DNA from: Hymenobacter jeollabukensis
GTDB lineage: Bacteria; Bacteroidota; Bacteroidia; Cytophagales; Hymenobacteraceae
Direction of reading: 5' to 3'
Assembly (NCBI RefSeq): GCF_005771675.1
Contig: NZ_VAJM01000006.1
Location: 124,001-188,000 of the forward strand
DNA: 64,000 nt
Positions 1,099-55,502 of the stretch are shown piece after piece. The position numbers were made by a program, and so were the translations under genes. A model generated the notes under the pieces. The model saw only the letters and a list, made by a program, of their open reading frames with translations, searched no databases and was not told where the DNA came from. Numbering within the stretch: position 1 is the stretch's first letter; the number at the start of each line of letters is the position of its first letter.

Positions 1099-1938
1099 TC
1101 AGGGCTTGCGGCGCTTGGCCACGGCAGGGCTGTAGAGCACGAAGCCTTCGATGGGGTCGGGCGCGAGGCGACCTTCCAGGCGGGCCGGCTCGAAGCGCGG
1201 CAGGCGGCGGATGGCCTCCAGCACGGCCGCGTTCAGGGCCTCGTCGTCGCCGCGCAGGATGCGCGGGGCGGTGGCCCGGCCCAGCGTGTCGACGTAGAAC
1301 GCGAAGTACACGATGCCCTTGCCGGGCCGGGCGTAGCCAGCGGGCAGGTAGTGCGGGTAGTCCTGGCTGAGCTGCTGCTGCACGTCGGGGCTGCCGCTGG
1401 TGGGCTGGGCGAAGGTGTGGTAGGGCGGGCACTCGGCCGGGTCGCCGGTGGCGGTGTAGCACTCGGCCCGCACGGCTTTCTGCTTGTAATAGTCTACGAG
1501 GCGGCGCGTCTCGCCGTTGGGGTAATAGGTCTGCAGGCGGCCCTCGGCCATACCCTTGCGGTAGCTGGCCTGCTCGCGCAGCTGCCCCGAGGGGTACCAC
1601 TGCCGGCTCGGCCCCTCGGGCACGCCCCAGGGCAGCGCCCCGCCGAAGCCCAGGGCCAGCAGCGGGCGGCGCGTGGTCAGGTCGTAGCGGCGCACACGCC
1701 AGCTGATGCCGGCGCTGTCGAGGCGCTGCAGCACTTCGTAGCTGGCGGCGCCCGCGGCCGCGGGCAGCGGGGCGCCGGCCGCGTCGTAGTAGCGCAGGCC
1801 GGCGCGCTTGTCCTGCAGCTCGTCGAGCACGGCCACGACGGGCAGATCGGGCACGGGATTATTTTGGGCGCGGGCGGCCAGGGGCAGGGCGGCGAGGCAG
1901 GTCAGCAGCGGCAGGCGGAGGGTCGAGCGTAGGGCCAT
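1099..1938 (-). CDS. Secreted MORN-repeat / TonB C-terminal domain protein (paralog 2)
   Basis: This 279-aa protein has the same architecture as its downstream neighbour. A signal peptide ends near residue 24 (ALPLAARAQ). Two MORN-like strands follow (SRQWYPSGQLREQASY and LQTYYPNGETRRLVDYY), then a TonB-C-like domain (VYFAFYVDTLGRATAPRIL, NAAVLEAIRRLPRFEPA). Residues 30-95 also align with paralog 1 (LRYYDAAGAPLP versus LRYLDRNLVPLP), which suggests tandem duplication. It lies 49 bp upstream of paralog 1 on the same strand and probably shares its transcript. The TonB-C domain probably acts as a protein- or peptidoglycan-binding module rather than an energy transducer; this is inference. Confidence 0.75.
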   Translation of the reverse strand: MALRSTLRLPLLTCLAALPLAARAQNNPVPDLPVVAVLDELQDKRAGLRYYDAAGAPLPAAAGAASYEVLQRLDSAGISWRVRRYDLTTRRPLLALGFGGALPWGVPEGPSRQWYPSGQLREQASYRKGMAEGRLQTYYPNGETRRLVDYYKQKAVRAECYTATGDPAECPPYHTFAQPTSGSPDVQQQLSQDYPHYLPAGYARPGKGIVYFAFYVDTLGRATAPRILRGDDEALNAAVLEAIRRLPRFEPARLEGRLAPDPIEGFVLYSPAVAKRRKP

Positions 1939-2040
1939 AGGCGGGTGGAGCGGTGGTTGGGCAGGCCTATAAACGCAGCGCCCGCGCTTCCGTTGGGCGG
2001 AAGCGCGGGCGCGGGTAGTCGAACTGACCGGGGCAGCCGT

Positions 2041-2994
2041 TTAGGAGCGGCGCTGCGGGGGCCCACCGGCGGGGCCGCCGGCGGCGGGCAGCTGCTGCAT
2101 GGCCATCAGCTGCTGAATGCTTTTCTGCATGCCCTCGTTGGAGCCGTCGAGGAAAATCACGTTGCCCTTGCCCTGCTCGGCGAAGTGCTTGATGGCCTCG
2201 GTCCACATCGAAAAGTACACCAGGGAGGGGTCGAGGTTGTTTTCCGTCAGCTCCTGCACGGCGTGGGCCATGCCCTTGGTGACTTCCTCGCGGAACAGGG
2301 CCACGCCCTGCCCGCGCAGCTGGGCGGCCACTTTCTCGGCTTCGGCCGCAATCTTGATGGCGTTGCCCTCCGCCTCGGCGGCCTTGGTTTTGGTGATGAG
2401 CAGGGCCTGGCCCTCGTTTTCAGCGGCGGCGCGCAGGTTGCTGCTGGCCACCACCTTGGCCATGGAGCGGATGATTTCCTCGTCGAAAGTGATGTCGTTG
2501 AGCTGCAGATCGATCAGGTGGTAGCCCCAGCTTTCCAGCGTCGCGTCGAGCTGCTCCTTCACGTGGGCCACGATTTCGCCGCGCAGGCTGAGCACGGCCG
2601 CCTGCCGCTGGGTGGCCACGAAGGTGCGGATGCTGCCCTCCACGGTGCGCACCAGCGCCTGCATCAAACTCATTTCGTCGACGAACTTAAAGGCCACGTT
2701 CTTGATGGCTTCTTCCTCGTGGTTGAGCACCGCGTACACCAGCATGGCCTTGAAGTTCACGTTGGCCTGGTCGGAGGTAATGGCCTGGAACTGCAGTTCC
2801 AGGGAGCGGTTTTGAATGCTGATGCGCTTGTAGACGAACTCGATGAAGGGAATCTTGAAGTTCAGCCCCGGCCGCATGATGCGCTGGTACTTGCCGAAAA
2901 TGGTGATGACCGCCACGGTGCCCTGCTGCACCACGACGAAGGAGAGAAACAGAAGCAGCCCGAGCAGGAGCAGCGGAACCAGCAGAAAAGGCAT
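2041..2994 (-). CDS. SPFH/Band 7 (stomatin-like) membrane protein
   Basis: This 317-aa protein belongs to the stomatin/prohibitin/flotillin group. Residues 3-22 form one N-terminal hydrophobic helix (LLVPLLLLGLLLFLSFVVV). The SPFH domain follows, with the typical GTVAVITIFGKYQRIMRPGLN and a strand leading to SIQNRSLELQFQAITSDQ. A long Ala/Glu-rich coiled coil occupies about residues 190-250 (NLRAAAENEGQALL, AAEAEGNAIKIAAEAEKVAA). The C-terminus is Gly/Pro/Gln-rich (AAGGPAGGPPQRRS). Such proteins oligomerise on membranes and scaffold proteases or microdomains. No NfeD-like partner gene is adjacent. The start matches the onset of the TM helix. Confidence 0.88.
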   Translation of the reverse strand: MPFLLVPLLLLGLLLFLSFVVVQQGTVAVITIFGKYQRIMRPGLNFKIPFIEFVYKRISIQNRSLELQFQAITSDQANVNFKAMLVYAVLNHEEEAIKNVAFKFVDEMSLMQALVRTVEGSIRTFVATQRQAAVLSLRGEIVAHVKEQLDATLESWGYHLIDLQLNDITFDEEIIRSMAKVVASSNLRAAAENEGQALLITKTKAAEAEGNAIKIAAEAEKVAAQLRGQGVALFREEVTKGMAHAVQELTENNLDPSLVYFSMWTEAIKHFAEQGKGNVIFLDGSNEGMQKSIQQLMAMQQLPAAGGPAGGPPQRRS

Positions 2995-3053
2995 ACGGCG
3001 GGAATAAGGTGAGAGTGCGGCCGGAAAGTAAGCGGAATAAAACCAATCGGCCG

Positions 3054-3839
3054 CTACAGCCCCAGCTGGCGTATGGCTTTGATAACGCCGGGCGCCTTGA
3101 AGGTGATGGGTACCAGCATGGCCATGGGTACCCGCTCCCCGTCGACGCGGCCGGGCTCGAAGGCCGGCAGGGTGCGCACGGCGGCTACGGCCGCCGCGTC
3201 CAGCTCGGGGCTGATGCCGGACTGCACGCGCACGTCCGTCACGTCGCCGCGGGCCGTCACGTTGAAGGCCACCAGCACCTGCCCCTCGCCCACGTCGGTC
3301 AGGGACTTGGGGTACGTGAGGTGGGCCTGCAGGTAGCTGACCAAGGCCGTGTTGCCGCCGGGAAAGGCCGGCTCCTGCCGAAACGGAATGTGCGGCTCCA
3401 CCAGCTGGCCCTCGGGCGTGAAGTACTGGCCCTTGACCAGCCGGCCGTGGGCAAAGAGGTCGTTGCGCCGCAGGCTGCCGTCGGGGTAGTAGGTGCGCAG
3501 GTAGCCGTCGATTTTCCCGTCGTCGGAGCGGTACTCCAGCCGGGGCTGCCCGTCGGGGTACCAGGTGCGCACCGGGCCCTGCACCACGCGCCGGTCGGGG
3601 GCGCTGTAGCTGACCTCGGAGTAGAGGCGGCCGTCGGGGAAGAAAATCTGCGTCACCACGGGCGCCCCGGCCCGGGCGGGCAGTTTCACTTGGGTGTAGT
3701 GGGCATTGGCCGGCTTCACTTCCAGCAGATCGGTATCGTAGAAGCTCACCAGCGAGTCTTTGATGCAGTCCTGGGGCGCCTGGGCCCAGGCGGGAGCCGC
3801 GCCCAACAGGCCACCGGCAACGAGTAATAGCACTTTCAT
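3054..3839 (-). CDS. Secreted MORN-repeat / TonB C-terminal domain protein (paralog 3)
   Basis: The start chosen is the ATG at 3837-3839, which places a signal peptide (MKVLLLVAGGLLGAAPAWAQ) at the N-terminus. A start nine codons upstream (3866) is possible but would add charged residues before it. MORN-like strands are the most complete of the three paralogs (KLPARAGAPVVTQIFFPDGR, VRTWYPDGQPRLEYRS, LRTYYPDGSLRRNDLF, GQYFTPEGQLVE). The C-terminal ~90 residues form a TonB-C domain (GEGQVLVAFNVTARGDVTDV, ELDAAAVAAVRTLPAFEPGR). It is separated from the other two copies by the SPFH gene. No membrane anchor is present. Function unknown. Confidence 0.75.
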   Translation of the reverse strand: MKVLLLVAGGLLGAAPAWAQAPQDCIKDSLVSFYDTDLLEVKPANAHYTQVKLPARAGAPVVTQIFFPDGRLYSEVSYSAPDRRVVQGPVRTWYPDGQPRLEYRSDDGKIDGYLRTYYPDGSLRRNDLFAHGRLVKGQYFTPEGQLVEPHIPFRQEPAFPGGNTALVSYLQAHLTYPKSLTDVGEGQVLVAFNVTARGDVTDVRVQSGISPELDAAAVAAVRTLPAFEPGRVDGERVPMAMLVPITFKAPGVIKAIRQLGL

Positions 3840-4531: not shown

Positions 4532-4535
4532 AGCT

Positions 4536-4659
4536 TGTCAGGAATTTTGACTCAAGATGATGAATTCTTGACAACAGCTGTCATTAATTCCCAACAGACA
4601 TGCAGAATTCTTGACAGCGCTTGTCAAGAATTTTCGGCAATGAACTGTAATTCTTGACA
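4536..4659. promoter_or_regulatory. 43-bp-period dyad array upstream of the HTH gene
   Basis: Six 11-bp half-sites alternate in orientation with exact spacing. Right arms (TGTCAAGAATT type) start at 4536, 4579 and 4622; left arms (AATTCTTGACA type) start at 4563, 4606 and 4649. Each left-right pair is separated by 5 bp and each right-left pair by 16 bp, giving a strict 43-bp period and a dyad centre every 21.5 bp. The 4606-4632 site is a perfect 11-5-11 palindrome; 4563-4589 is near-perfect. The array covers most of the gap between the HTH gene (start 4531) and the 3' end of alaS (4779). It looks like a cooperative operator, but the binding protein is not known. Confidence 0.8.
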
Positions 4660-4778
4660 AGTCATGCGCACGCACAAATGCAAGGTGGCGTCCTCACATC
4701 GTTCAAACGGTCCTGAAACGCCAACGGCCCCGGACGTTGCCGCCCGGAGCCGTTGCTTGATTTAGTATCAGTCAGGAA

Positions 4779-12199: not shown

Positions 12200-13024
12200 A
12201 TGTCCCTGGTTTTATTCGACGGTGCGCTGCTTCCGGCTGCCGACCTCGCCCTGCCGCTGCCCAACCGTGGCTTGCAGTTCAACGACGGCTTTTTCGAAAC
12301 GCTGGTGCTCCGCAACGGCCACCTGCGCTATGCGGCCGACCACGCGGCCCGCATGCGCTGGGCGGCCACCGCCCTGCATCTGCACCTGCCCGCGGCCCTG
12401 AGCACGCCCTCGGGCCTGGAACAAACCATGCGGCACCTGGCCGACGCCAATGACTTAACCGCGGCGTGCCGCCTGCGGCTGCAGCTTTGGCGCGGCGGCG
12501 GCGGGCTCTACGCCCCCGTGACGGCCGCTGCCCACTGGTTGGTCACGGCAGTGCCGTTCGAGGCTGGACCGACCACACCCGCCCGGGCGGCCTTCGCCGG
12601 CAGCATCCGCACGCATTTTTCGCCGGTGTCGTTTTGCAAGGGGCCCTACGCGCTGCATTATGTGCTGGCCGCCCAAGAGCGCGCCGCCCGGGGCCTCGAC
12701 GACCTGCTGCTGCTCGACGGGCAGGGTCACGTGGCCGAGGCAGTGGCGGCGGCGGTGTTCTGGCTACGGGAAGGGGTGTTGTACACGCCGGCCCTGGAAA
12801 GCGGCTGCGTGGCCGGGGTGCGGCGGGCCCACCTGCTGCGGGTGGCGCAGCAGCGGAGCCTGCCGTGTCAGATAGGTTTGTTTCCGGCCGAGGCGGTGCT
12901 GGCGGCCGAGGTGGCCTTTACGGCCAACGTCGCCGGTATCCGGCCATTGGCCAGCATTGGCGAAACGCCGCTGGCCACAATGCATCCGCTGCTGGAGGCG
13001 CTGCGGCGCTGGGAGGCCGTTTAG
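12200..13024 (+). CDS. Class IV aminotransferase (aminodeoxychorismate lyase / BCAT-like)
   Basis: This is a 274-aa PLP enzyme of fold type IV. Family features are the N-terminal LFDGALLPAADLALPLPNRG followed by QFNDGFFETLVLRNGHL, and HAARMRWAATAL. The catalytic Lys lies in FCKGPYALHYVLAAQERAAR, followed by GLDDLLLLDGQGHVAEAVAA and ALESGCVAGVRR. The length suits PabC (4-amino-4-deoxychorismate lyase, folate pathway) better than IlvE (~300-360 aa), but substrate specificity cannot be read safely. The start at 12200 matches the family N-terminus; the open frame extends upstream to 12008 without meaning. The -7-like TATTTTG lies close upstream. The 3' end overlaps the convergent gene at 13021 by 4 bp. 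Confidence 0.88.
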   Translation: MSLVLFDGALLPAADLALPLPNRGLQFNDGFFETLVLRNGHLRYAADHAARMRWAATALHLHLPAALSTPSGLEQTMRHLADANDLTAACRLRLQLWRGGGGLYAPVTAAAHWLVTAVPFEAGPTTPARAAFAGSIRTHFSPVSFCKGPYALHYVLAAQERAARGLDDLLLLDGQGHVAEAVAAAVFWLREGVLYTPALESGCVAGVRRAHLLRVAQQRSLPCQIGLFPAEAVLAAEVAFTANVAGIRPLASIGETPLATMHPLLEALRRWEAV

Positions 13025-16206: not shown

Positions 16207-18510
16207 GTGCTCCAACCCCGCTCCCTCAGCCTGCTCACCCTGGCCGCCCTGGCCCTGCTGGGCCTGCTGGCCCTCACCGGCCTGCTGCGCCTGCGCTTCA
16301 ACTACAATTTCAACGACTTCTACCCCACCGGCGACCCGGACCTGGCCTACTACCAGGACTACGCCCGGCGCTTCGGCAACGACAATGACTACGTGCTGGT
16401 GGGCCTGCAGGCCCCGGCCGGCCGCACCGTGTTCGACGCCGGCTTTGCCCGCCGCGTCGATGCGTTTACGCGCTTTGCCCAAGGGCAGCGCAACGTGCGG
16501 CAGGTGGTGTCGCCCACCACGGCCAGCAACCCCATCGTGGAGGGCCTGGGCGTGTTCAACGTGCCCTACCTGCACCTCGACCAACTCGGCCGCGACCCGG
16601 CCAGCCGCGCCCGGGACTCGGCCCTGATCTACCGCACGCCCGGGCTGGTGGGCAACCTCTTCGCCCCCGACGCGCGGGCCGTGGCCGTGGTGCTGCAAAC
16701 CACGCCCGACCTCAAGAAGCCGCCCGGCGACACGCTGCTGGCCGCGCTGCGCGGGGAGCTGCGCCGCCTGGGCATTGGGGACGAGCAGATTCACTTCGGG
16801 GGCAAGATGGTGGCGCAGTCGGTGTTTGTGGACCGGCTGCGGGTGGAAATGGCGGTGTTCGTGTCGCTTTCGGTGCTGCTGGTGATGGGGCTGCTCTGGC
16901 TCACGTTCCGGGCCTGGTGGGGGGTGGTGCTGCCCCTCTCGGTGGTGGCCGGGGCCACGGTGGGCGGACTGGCGCTGGTGGGCTGGTCGGGGGCGGGCAT
17001 CGACTTGATGACCGCCCTGCTGCCGGTGATGATGTGCGTGGTGGGCATTGCCGACTCGGTGCACCTGCTCACGCGCTACGTGACGGAAACCGGCGAAGGC
17101 ACCCCGACGGTGCCGGCCCTGCGCATCAGCATGCGGGAGTCGATGTTTGGCTCCGGGCTGTCGGCCCTGACGACTTCGCTGGGCTTTTTCACGCTCACGA
17201 CCAGCCACATCCGCCCCATTCACAACTTCGGGCTGTACACGGGCCTGGCGGTACTGATTGCCTACGCCCTGTCGTTTACCTTGCTGCCGGCCCTGCTGGT
17301 GCTGCTGCCGCGCCCGCAGCAGAAGTTCGGGGCCGGGCGCAGCTGGGACGGACCGCTGATGCGCCTGCTCGCGTGGGTGCTGCGCCGGCGGGCCCTCATC
17401 GTGGGCGCGGCGGCGGTGCTGGTGGTGGGCGCCCTGACGGCGGCCTCGCAGGTGCGCATCGAGTCGCGGCTGCTGGACGACTTGGCCGACGACGACCCGG
17501 TGCAACTGGACTTCCGCTTCTTCGAGCGGGAGTTTGCCGGCGTGCGCCCCTTCGAGCTGCACCTGCTCCCGCAGGGCGGGCGCACCGTCTACAGTCTCGA
17601 CGTGCTGCGCGAAACCGAGGAAATCGAAACCTACCTGCAACGCCAATACGGCCTGCGCTTCGTGGCCTCGCCGGTGACGGTGGTCAAGTCCCTGCGCAAG
17701 GCCCTGAATGGCGGGGCCCTGGAAGAGTACCGCCTCCCCGATTCGGAGGCCGAGCTGCAGCGCCTGCTGCGGCGGCTGCGGCCGTTTCGGAAGAAGCCCG
17801 AGTTTCGGGCCCTGGCCCTCGACGACGCCCGGCAGGGCCGCCTGACCGGCCGCATGCCCGACCCGGGCAGCACGACGGTGGCCCGCCTGAACCGGGGGCT
17901 GCAGCAATTCCTGCGCACCCACACCGACCCGGGCGTGCTGCGCACCCGCCAGACCGGCTCGGCCCTGCTCATCGACAAGAACAACCAGAACCTCACGCGG
18001 GACATGCTGCTGGGCATCGGGATGGACGTGGTGATGGTCACCATCATCGTGCTGGCGCTGTTCCGTTCCTTCCGCATGGTGCCGGTGGTGCTGATTCCCA
18101 ACCTGCTCCCTATCGTGGTGGTGGGCGGGGTGATGGGCCTGTGCGGGGTGCCCATGAAAGTCAGCACCAGCATCATCTTCACCATTGCCTTTGGCATTGC
18201 CGTCGACGACACCATTCACTTCATCACCAAGCTGCGCCTGATGCTGGGCAAAGAGCCCACGGTGGAAGCGGCCGTGCGCCACACCTACCGGCTGGCCGGC
18301 AAGGCCGTCATCGTCACCTCCCTCATCCTGGTCGGCGGTTTTAGCACCCTGCTCTTCTCCTCCTTCGACGGCACGTTCTACGTGGGCCTGCTCATCGGCC
18401 TGACGCTGCTCTTCGGCGTGGTGGCCGAGCTGACGCTGCTGCCCATCCTCATTCTGCATTTCTACAAGAAGCCCCGCGTGGGCCGGGCCCGACACGCGGC
18501 CACGCGGTAA
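16207..18510 (+). CDS. RND superfamily / MMPL-type exporter
   Basis: This 767-aa inner-membrane protein has two homologous halves, each with one TM helix, a large periplasmic loop and a five-helix bundle. TM1 is LTLAALALLGLLALTGLLRL. The first bundle starts near residue 215 (FVSLSVLLVMGLLWLTF) with VVGIADSVHLLTRYV. The second half begins near residue 395 (ALIVGAAAVLVVGALTAA), and its bundle carries IAFGIAVDDTIHFITKLRLM, the SSD/RND GxxxDD helix. It lacks the ~1000-aa size and docking domain of HAE1 pumps and so belongs with the MMPL/HpnN-like predicted exporters. The GTG at 16207 is the first in-frame start after a stop. Substrate unknown (lipid-like is inference). Confidence 0.88.
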   Translation: MLQPRSLSLLTLAALALLGLLALTGLLRLRFNYNFNDFYPTGDPDLAYYQDYARRFGNDNDYVLVGLQAPAGRTVFDAGFARRVDAFTRFAQGQRNVRQVVSPTTASNPIVEGLGVFNVPYLHLDQLGRDPASRARDSALIYRTPGLVGNLFAPDARAVAVVLQTTPDLKKPPGDTLLAALRGELRRLGIGDEQIHFGGKMVAQSVFVDRLRVEMAVFVSLSVLLVMGLLWLTFRAWWGVVLPLSVVAGATVGGLALVGWSGAGIDLMTALLPVMMCVVGIADSVHLLTRYVTETGEGTPTVPALRISMRESMFGSGLSALTTSLGFFTLTTSHIRPIHNFGLYTGLAVLIAYALSFTLLPALLVLLPRPQQKFGAGRSWDGPLMRLLAWVLRRRALIVGAAAVLVVGALTAASQVRIESRLLDDLADDDPVQLDFRFFEREFAGVRPFELHLLPQGGRTVYSLDVLRETEEIETYLQRQYGLRFVASPVTVVKSLRKALNGGALEEYRLPDSEAELQRLLRRLRPFRKKPEFRALALDDARQGRLTGRMPDPGSTTVARLNRGLQQFLRTHTDPGVLRTRQTGSALLIDKNNQNLTRDMLLGIGMDVVMVTIIVLALFRSFRMVPVVLIPNLLPIVVVGGVMGLCGVPMKVSTSIIFTIAFGIAVDDTIHFITKLRLMLGKEPTVEAAVRHTYRLAGKAVIVTSLILVGGFSTLLFSSFDGTFYVGLLIGLTLLFGVVAELTLLPILILHFYKKPRVGRARHAATR

Positions 18511-18533
18511 GGCCCCGGCCGACGGTTATACCC

Positions 18534-18907
18534 TTGCCGCGAATGGCGACAGCGTATCCGCACGGCCCGACCCTGCTGCCGCCGTTCGCGGCAGTAGGTA
18601 CTACGATGTATTTCCTACTGCCGCCATTCGCGGAAGCATGTACTACAGTGTAGTCCCAGCTGCCGCCGTTCGCGGCAGTATGTATTACGGCGTAGTCCCT
18701 GCCGCCGCCATTCGCGGCAGTATGCACTACGCCGTAGTTCCTGTTGCCGCCGTTCGCGGAAGCATGTACTACGACGTAGTCCTAGCTGCAGCCGTTCGCG
18801 GAAGTGTATCTGGCGCTTCCGACCCTGCTCCCGAATGATTCGGATATATGGTCGACGCTTCCGACCACGTTCCTGAATCATTCGGATGCAGGGTCGGAGG
18901 CGTCGAC
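18534..18907. repeat. Array of palindromes phased every 21 bp (42-bp period)
   Basis: Dyad-symmetric sites recur with centres 21 bp apart from 18543 to 18900. In 18534-18801 two palindromes alternate: type A CTGCCGC-CGTTC-GCGGCAG (centres 18543, 18585, 18627, 18669, 18711, 18753, 18795) and type B ACTACG-N-CGTAGT (18606, 18648, 18690, 18732, 18774). The phase then continues with unrelated sequences: CCGAATGATTCGG (18837, 18879) alternating with TGGTCG-N7-CGACCA (18858, relatives at 18816 and 18900). All three frames on both strands stay largely open across it, so a coding role is not indicated. No function is known to me. Confidence 0.85.
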
Positions 18908-19136
18908 TACGTCGCCGGATTTTTCGACCTGACTTGGGTAGAGCTGCCGGCCAGGTGGGTAGGCGGGGGACGGGTAGCCGGGGACGAAGTTGGTAGCCGA
19001 GTCGGGGGCCGGGGAGCGGCGGCCCTTCGTTGATGGCATCTGAGCGGTGGCGGGCGGTGTCGGCGGAGCTGCGGGAAGTGGCCTTTTTGGCCCAGTACCC
19101 AACCAGCGCGGCCGGCCTACGTACTTTTGCCCAGCT

Positions 19137-19721
19137 ATGAAATACCCCGTTTGCCTGCTGCTGGCCGCCACGCTGGCGTTTCCGTCCGTTGCCCAAACGC
19201 CCCCGCCGCCCGACGACGCGGTGCCCGGCCTGATCCGGGAGCGGGAGCAGCTCATCAAAGAATACGAGGCCGCCAGCGCCCAGCGCAACGCCTTTCTGGC
19301 CAACAAGCCTTCCAAGAAAGACCTGGAGGAGGTCATCGGCGCGCTAAAGGGCATCATCCGCAAGGATTCCGAAATCGTGCAGGCGCTGAAGGCCGGGGAG
19401 CTGCGCCGCCAGGCCAGCATCGTGGCCGAAAAGCAGCAGGCCGTGCAGCAGGCCACCGTGGCCCAGACCGACCAGACCTCCACCAAGGAGCGGTTCTACG
19501 ACCTGGAAAACCAGATTGCCAACCTGGAGCTGCGCGACAAGCAGCGCGAGAAAAAACTCCGCGAAGCCGAAGCCGCCGCCCACGACGCCCAATCGGGCCG
19601 CACCACGCCCCAGCTGCTGGCCGTGGGCCTGGCCCTGCTCAGCCTGGGCCTGCTGGGCTACGTAGCCAAGCTCCGCGGCCGGCTGAATGGCGCCCCCCGC
19701 CGCAGCCCTAAGCGCCGCTAG
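19137..19721 (+). CDS. Secreted or membrane-anchored coiled-coil protein
   Basis: This 194-aa protein starts at ATG 19137, with a -7-like TACTTTTG 8 nt upstream. It has a signal peptide (MKYPVCLLLAATLAFPSVAQ). A long charged coiled coil spans about residues 30-155 (LIREREQLIKEYEAASAQRN, IANLELRDKQREKKLREAEA). One TM helix lies at ~165-182 (LLAVGLALLSLGLLGYVA), and the tail is basic (RRSPKRR). The topology suggests a periplasmic rod anchored by its C-terminus. No family recognised. It lies downstream of the 21-bp palindrome array. Confidence 0.7.
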   Translation: MKYPVCLLLAATLAFPSVAQTPPPPDDAVPGLIREREQLIKEYEAASAQRNAFLANKPSKKDLEEVIGALKGIIRKDSEIVQALKAGELRRQASIVAEKQQAVQQATVAQTDQTSTKERFYDLENQIANLELRDKQREKKLREAEAAAHDAQSGRTTPQLLAVGLALLSLGLLGYVAKLRGRLNGAPRRSPKRR

Positions 19722-19736
19722 CGCCGGCTGGATACT

Positions 19737-19929
19737 CAGAACGTCATCCTGAGCGCAGCGAAGGACCTTCCTCGCACCCTGCACCGCCGCCGCCTACGAA
19801 GTGCAGACGCTTTTCCAATAATGCCGAAGCGCGGCCACCATAGCTCATACATTGGGCGTTGGTGGCTGCGCTTGGGCGTTGGTGCAGGGTGCGAGGAAGG
19901 TCCTTCGCTGCGCTCAGGATGACGTTCTG
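19737..19929. repeat. Large inverted-repeat element with perfect 49-bp arms
   Basis: Arms 19737-19785 and 19881-19929 are exact reverse complements over 49 bp and enclose a 95-bp loop. The arm core GTCATCCTGAGCGCAGCGAA recurs in elements at 23410 and 43482. It contains no gene, starts 16 bp after a stop codon, and could fold into a very stable hairpin RNA. The size and terminal symmetry resemble a miniature inverted-repeat element, but no target-site duplication was identified. Confidence 0.9.
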
Positions 19930-54999: not shown

Positions 55000-55118
55000 G
55001 CGCTAGTGGCAGTGGTGGAAGCGCGGCAAAGGTAGACGACAGTCCCGCATCCGGCCACTACCTGCCAACGGGAAGGGTAGCACTGGCTTTTATCCAAATC
55101 CACCTTTGATTGTCGCAG

Positions 55119-55363
55119 GTCGTCGCGACGAGTAGGCCGTTGTCAGCGCGCAAGACCCTACTTGTCACGACGAGTACCGATTTGCTAACGAGCAACTAGC
55201 TTCTTGTCACGACAAGATCCTAGTTGTCAACGTGCGGAGGGCTTCTCGTCGCGACAAGTGTCTAGTTGCGAACGAGCAAATGCCTTCTTGTCGTGACAAG
55301 AACCTATTTGCTAATGAGCAAAGACCTTCTTGTCCGGACAAGCCAGTCGTTGCAAAGACGCGG
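55119..55363. repeat. Second array of alternating palindromes (42-bp period, 21-bp phase)
   Basis: Type A sites (CTTGTC-NN-GACAAG) start at 55119, 55161, 55203, 55245, 55287 and 55329. Type B sites (TTGC-N6-GCAA type) start at 55140, 55182, 55224, 55266, 55308 and 55350. Both series have an exact 42-bp period and their centres alternate every 21 bp. Changes in one arm are often matched in the other: 55119 has TCGTC/GACGA, 55287 has CTTGTC/GACAAG. No gene is present in 55000-55450 apart from this. It resembles in layout, not sequence, the array at 18534. Confidence 0.85.
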
Positions 55364-55399
55364 GGGCCTTCTTGGCGGAACACGCCCCGTTATAAATGA

Positions 55400-55435
55400 G
55401 CAAGGCCCCGCTGAGCCAGGTCAGCGGGGCCTTGC
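55400..55435. terminator. Terminator-like hairpin before the second HAD gene
   Basis: A 15-bp perfect stem (GCAAGGCCCCGCTGA and complement) with a 6-nt loop lies 68 bp beyond the stop of the HAD gene at 55503. No T-run follows on the minus strand (the flank reads TCATTTATAAC), so it may be partial. Confidence 0.6.
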
Positions 55436-55502
55436 GACGAAGACCTAGCGGGCCTACCACGCATTGGTCAGACGAAGCCCGGTCGGCGGTCGGCCCGGCG
55501 GG

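Follow-up and report, generated by a model that had tools for sequence, protein, structure and literature searches.

The window analysed here is a stretch of 64,000 nucleotides from the genome of Hymenobacter jeollabukensis, which comprises 6.18 Mb in 27 contigs. The intergenic region between two plus-strand genes contains an array of dyad-symmetric sites, referred to as the focal array, and a second array occurs elsewhere in the window. The features concerned are as follows.

16207..18510, plus strand: upstream gene, MMPL family protein (Pfam); the focal array starts about 22 bp past its stop codon.
18533..18910, no strand: focal array, with dyad centres on the grid 18543 + 21k.
18554..18574, no strand: grid unit k = 1, a third unit type (GTATCCGCACGGCCCGACCCT) with weak dyads.
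18571..18812, no strand: block 1, type A (CTGCCGC-CRTTC-GCGGCAG) and type B (ACTACG-N-CGTAGT) dyads in alternation.
18814..18902, no strand: block 2, two 42-bp units with CCGAATGATTCGG and GGTCG/CGACC dyads, in register with block 1.
19122..19129, plus strand: TACTTTTG, immediately before the downstream start codon.
19137..19721, plus strand: downstream gene, 194 aa, no Pfam match at E 0.001.
55090..55413 (approximate; core 55152-55342), no strand: second window array, period 42, with CTTGTCNNGACAAG and TTGCTNNNNAGCAA-like dyads at 55167.5 + 21k.

TACTTTTG at 19122..19129 resembles TAnnTTTG, the -7 element of Bacteroidetes. The same TACTTTTG letters occur at that place in H. edaphi and in Hymenobacter sp. 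15J16-1T3B, the latter having no array at this locus, just a short gap with TACTTTTG before the start codon. Past the downstream gene, long inverted copies of AACGTCATCCTGAGCGCAGCGAAGGACC are present at 19740-19925, and a similar GTCATGCTGAGCTTGTCGAAGCAT pair is found at about 56190 and 56310.

The initial annotation described an array of dyads on a 21-bp grid in this intergenic region, and both its coordinates and its grid proved to be correct. Self-similarity at lag 42 spans 18533-18844, and block 2 continues in phase to about 18902-18910. Of 8 complementary pairs possible at offsets 2-9, sixteen of the 18 grid centres (18543-18900, k = 0-17) have 4-7. The remaining two, k = 1 (18564) and k = 13 (18816), show just 2 each, which makes the original count of seventeen or more centres a slight overestimate. 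The third unit type appears again at k = 13 (18806-18826, GTATCTGGCGCTTCCGACCCT), also with weak dyads, a likeness judged by eye. Mean complementarity was 0.654 for the best 17-centre grid, compared to 0.344 +/- 0.018 (maximum 0.434) in dinucleotide shuffles of the segment. None of 2000 shuffles reached 0.654, which answers the concern, raised at the outset, that shuffled sequences might show equal phase continuity. In a scan of the whole window for six dyads at spacings of 12-60 bp, the focal array scored 7.49 with a best spacing of 21, and the array near 55125-55342 scored 7.49 with a best spacing of 42, whereas 20 shuffles of the window gave no score above 6.26. One further peak (4132, spacing 12, score 6.26) was at noise level. 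When the columns of the repeat unit were permuted as the null, dyad content of the focal array alone gave p = 0.027. A blastn search of the genome with the focal array as query returned 4 matches, every one inside the focal array, and Rfam yielded 0 matches in the window at the gathering score.

Any 42-bp repeat identical to its reverse complement has two dyad classes 21 bp apart; thus, the alternation of types A and B adds no evidence. What does count, being independent of period 42 plus symmetry, is that the register persists where the palindrome changes. Scored alone, block 1 (18574-18806) had its best dyad phase at offset 0 of the 42 half-base phases by a wide margin (0.74 vs 0.47), and block 2 (18814-18908) chose the same offset by a small one (0.53 vs 0.44). 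The claim that a second palindrome pair follows in the same phase is borne out to that extent.

H. edaphi is close to the window's genome, with DNA beside the focal array being 93-95% identical, and it carries an array (L025) behind the same MMPL gene. In L025, CCGAATNATTCGG centres occur at 12337, 12505 and 12547, as in block 2, and GTCGAAATTTTCGAC centres occur at 12379, 12421 and 12463, where the window has block 1. All of these centres are exactly 42 bp apart, so that the related genome does not refute the claim of a constant phase. Block 2 and the sequence after it have 83% identity to the orthologous H. edaphi intergenic region, and block 1 has no match there; the A/B block of the window instead matches another H. 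edaphi location, array L193, at 73% identity. Palindromes are swapped between the sister species while the step is held.

The second window array has the step of the focal array, different palindromes, and a relative at G000:C2:995-1231. The corresponding intergenic region of H. edaphi is 72 bp long and lacks an array, versus 503 bp in the window (55000-55502). Presence or absence of an array thus differs between sister species, as would be expected of a neutral satellite. A strong hairpin, GGCCCCGCTGA/TCAGCGGGGCC, is found at the edge of this array (55404-55433). Elsewhere in the window, a short intergenic region between two minus-strand genes (4532-4696) has several TGTCAAGAATT-like dyads about 43 bp apart, which could be operator sites.

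Such arrays are not confined to the window. Across about 1.58 Mb of the same genome, a period of 21 or 42 was found in 19 of 47 locally repetitive intergenic regions. H. edaphi and other Hymenobacter also carry such arrays, samples of six genomes of the genus were poor in them, and a pattern based on TGTTTT recovered further 21-bp arrays in other family members, some with L155-like units. Together, these intergenic arrays form a genuine class whose step is nearly always two helical turns. Spacing kept despite sequence change, as first proposed for the focal array, is equally true of its H. edaphi counterpart, the second window array and further arrays of the genome. Dyads, in turn, are not the defining feature they were taken for. 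Significant dyads (p < 0.03, column-permutation null) were detected in 10 of 22 arrays of this genome and in 12 of 30 arrays overall; of the 22, two have lag 43 and one has lag 41, and among the 19 with lag 21 or 42, eight are dyadic. Significant symmetry is lacking in, for example, L022, L106, L141, L155 and L157, which are direct repeats. With only 10 of 22 dyadic, the common feature is the step and not the palindrome. In pooled intergenic sequence of this genome from which the arrays had been removed, a weaker excess was still present at lag 21 (9.6) and lag 18 (6.8), so the pooled autocorrelation does not come from arrays alone.

A shared step could have a neutral origin, in which an ancestral 21-bp minisatellite family spread and diverged, with its step inherited and kept by unequal exchange or whole-unit slippage, and with no function. 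Profile comparison of 27 arrays is in keeping with this, as 36 of 351 pairs were similar at p <= 0.02 where 7 were expected (orthologous pairs counted in). Strong pairs were the window array at 18533 with L193, the window array at 55090 with L009, L022 with L157, and L155 with L054 of H. psychrophilus; the L155 unit also resembles units of other Hymenobacter. The frequent best repeat periods of 42, 84 and 126, the last also found in block 1 as 3 x 42, include the higher-order periods expected of a satellite. These periods point to duplication of larger blocks and do not bear out growth by 21-bp half-units, as had been suggested. Because array relatedness means that part of the shared step may be inherited, the neutral origin keeps a good share of our belief, though we consider it somewhat unlikely. 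The remaining 315 pairs, which lack similarity at p <= 0.02, count against it. The description of the palindromes as unrelated is right in part, since units are shared by some arrays.

The constancy of the step weighs more heavily against a neutral origin. A leave-one-out profile scan was run over the entire intergenic region of 27 arrays with lag 21, 42 or 63, two of which were dropped for having too few core units. All 142 matches in the 25 arrays, some of which are orthologous to each other and hence not fully independent, fell on the 21-bp grid: 132 were in register, and the other 10 were displaced by half of a 42-bp unit. Neighbouring units differ by about a third (~32% of positions; 1286 differences in 117 pairs). 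For non-array intergenic regions compared with H. edaphi, the ratio of gap openings to substitutions was 0.158 when aligned locally (274 to 1731) and 0.375 when aligned globally (1169 to 3117). The lower of these rates predicts on the order of a hundred length changes in the arrays, allowing for shared descent of the differences, and no unit was off-grid. The transition fraction of 0.48, versus 0.53, fits ordinary mutation. In L009, the dyads are kept and the linkers randomised, which likewise speaks against neutrality. The chief weakness of the fixed-step argument is detection bias: the step stays at whole helical turns as the sequence diverges, but the detection of arrays relied on ungapped repeats and thereby favoured perfect spacing, a bias offset only in part by the off-grid scan. 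There are also exceptions to the step, namely L146 (period 41), L271 of another genome of the family (G100:C23:489301-490300; mixed 19-21-bp steps, with units of 20 and 21 bp giving period 41, around GTCCGG motifs), the tail of L249 (one 41 and one 20), and 22-bp steps in at least two of the 42 rows listed for genus g2. Among the matches listed for that genus, at least 15 rows at seven or more loci have steps of 21 and 21, by a count made by eye.

Conservation along the 21-bp unit was considered as a signal at the level of DNA. In 27 arrays, the largest harmonic of conservation was at 10.5 bp (0.172 vs 0.10 expected, p = 0.0005), followed by 21 bp (0.143). With blocks of 3, 4 and 5 columns kept intact, the 10.5-bp harmonic gave p = 0.007, 0.0135 and 0.027; among the 16 arrays placed in the non-dyadic class, it was weak (p = 0.0135, 0.06 and 0.08). 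A protein bound to a single face of the helix would leave a 10.5-bp harmonic of this sort.

Of the readings considered, selection for phase has the best support. We put at roughly one in two the probability that the arrays are phase-selected platforms for a putative DNA-binding protein that grow by whole-unit duplication. Arrays would lengthen and shorten through duplication of whole units, and selection would purge other changes of length because the protein would sit on a single face of the helix, with two turns to each step. It would bind symmetric units as dimers and read arrays lacking symmetry as direct repeats. The arrays would probably serve as a local nucleoprotein scaffold or a boundary between adjacent genes. 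Against such a platform, the many sequences would require either one sequence-tolerant protein or several proteins. The stronger statement, that the step is under selection with the repeat sequence nearly free, the arrays being sequence-tolerant, phase-reading scaffolds that are renewed locus by locus through duplication and are characteristic of the genus, is offered tentatively.

As a special case of the phase-selected platform, the protein may be gyrase or another wrapping protein, with the arrays serving as strong sites by analogy with E. coli BIME-2. The precedent is the 130-bp motif of E. coli gyrase, with its 10.75-bp GC periodicity, and the cuts that the enzyme makes in BIME-2 (PMC6379681). 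The intergenic location of the arrays and their two-turn step are compatible with this candidate. G+C power at 10.5 bp exceeded that of column permutations in 30 arrays (Fisher p = 0.003, a signal carried by few arrays), but it was no stronger than that at other harmonics of 21. A role for gyrase or another wrapping protein seems quite improbable.

A role at the level of RNA, in which transcribed arrays act in termination or insulation, the C-rich ones as Rho loading sites and the dyadic ones as hairpins, was weighed against the transcriptional context. Seventeen of the 22 arrays of this genome lie between tandem genes, 3 between convergent and 2 between divergent genes. The preference is modest, since 122 of the 197 intergenic regions of at least 300 bp are also tandem (19 convergent, 56 divergent). 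Related pairs of tandem-flanked arrays had the same sense in 11 cases and opposite senses in 4; the related L155 and L054 are in opposite sense. Rho utilisation sites have C over G in the transcript and evenly spaced YC dimers. Tandem-flanked arrays with a GC skew of at least 0.2 in size comprised 10 C-rich and 1 G-rich on the gene-sense strand (background -0.04 +/- 0.10), the limit having been fixed after the data were seen, with L141 (+0.18) and L268 (+0.14) just under it; L249, L269, L270 and L271 were excluded from this count on account of an unknown flanking gene or a divergent gene pair. Of eight C-rich arrays that were folded, seven fold less in sense than in antisense, L135 being the opposite. 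There is thus some sign that C-rich arrays are linked to transcription. The focal array is nearly unskewed (-0.07), however, and YC dinucleotides lacked a 10-11 nt spacing in 14 sequences (p = 0.63 for cyclic autocorrelation at lag 10). Arm mismatches in tandem-flanked dyadic arrays had no excess of G:T over A:C (23 vs 22), and the two strands of these arrays have similar fold strength (fold z). Pooled covariation in dyads was positive (1170 pairs vs 1098, z 5.6), a value inflated by the choice of centre, and no compensatory change was seen in the window array (z -2.9 and 0.0). The chain of RNA hairpins entertained in the initial annotation is not supported, given the mismatch counts, the similar folding of both strands and this lack of compensatory change. 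Nor does RNA function alone explain a step that is precise to 1 bp across hundreds of bp, and we regard an RNA-level element as unlikely.

Since 21 bp corresponds to seven codons, protein-coding heptad repeats were considered as well. One frame of L022, translated by eye, gives a heptad-like peptide. Against coding, differences between units were spread evenly over the three codon phases in 26 arrays (chi-square p = 0.37), 39 frames were open where column permutation predicts 30.7, and 6 of the 26 have stops in all six frames. Coding is not supported, and we give it almost no credence.

Known bacterial repeat classes are, to our knowledge, defined by a common sequence. REPs have a sequence common to all copies across the genome; the Hymenobacter arrays have a common step and mostly not a common sequence. 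The focal array is both intergenic and palindromic, as REPs and BIMEs are, with dyads in 10 of 22 arrays for the class. Membership by a genome-wide palindrome was rejected, as blastn matches were confined to the focal array and the arrays are only partly related. Plasmid iterons and ARG boxes are sites placed every two helical turns on one face of the DNA, sequence-specific for one protein and few per genome. The Hymenobacter arrays share this placement but are many and of many sequences. Cyanobacterial STRR are abundant short intergenic tandem repeats. Heptamer repeats (TAACTGA) are likewise abundant, occur also in some Bacteroidetes, and have one fixed 7-bp sequence (PMC4679880). Enterobacterial BIME-2 resembles the present arrays in being an intergenic palindromic array and a possible platform for gyrase or nucleoid proteins (PMC6379681). 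The F-plasmid centromere parS/sopC has twelve tandem repeats of 43 bp, and ParB binds its ten 16-bp inverted repeats (PMC6238139). It is a tandem array hundreds of bp long, whose units lie about four helical turns apart and each carry a dyad, and the focal array likewise has tandem units with a dyad each. Unlike sopC, which is one locus of one sequence with its own partition genes, the Hymenobacter arrays are many and chromosomal, each with its own sequence and a 21-bp sub-step. Neither parA nor parB was found by Pfam among the four genes immediately flanking both window arrays (MMPL family, no match, and two HAD-like hydrolases).

In searches of open-access papers directed at repeats of this kind, neither phase-selected arrays nor a 21-bp duplication process was found described. 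What sets the Hymenobacter class apart is a step length common to the base pair in nearly all arrays. That sequence changes from array to array while 21 bp stays nearly constant suggests that spacing, rather than sequence, matters to the cell, and the initial interpretation as a whole is partly supported. If phase selection holds, a DNA-binding system would read helical register instead of sequence, and the many arrays per genome would be a natural test set; if the arrays are neutral, they would point to a duplication process with a built-in 21-bp unit.

Heptamer runs also occur in this genome, apart from the 21-bp arrays, which sets the latter off from heptamer repeats and STRR. Runs of TTGTCAG at L007:8457 and L024:9797 start immediately at stop codons and stop short of a hairpin that has a T run, and besides these two, the genome has seven other lag-14 matches.
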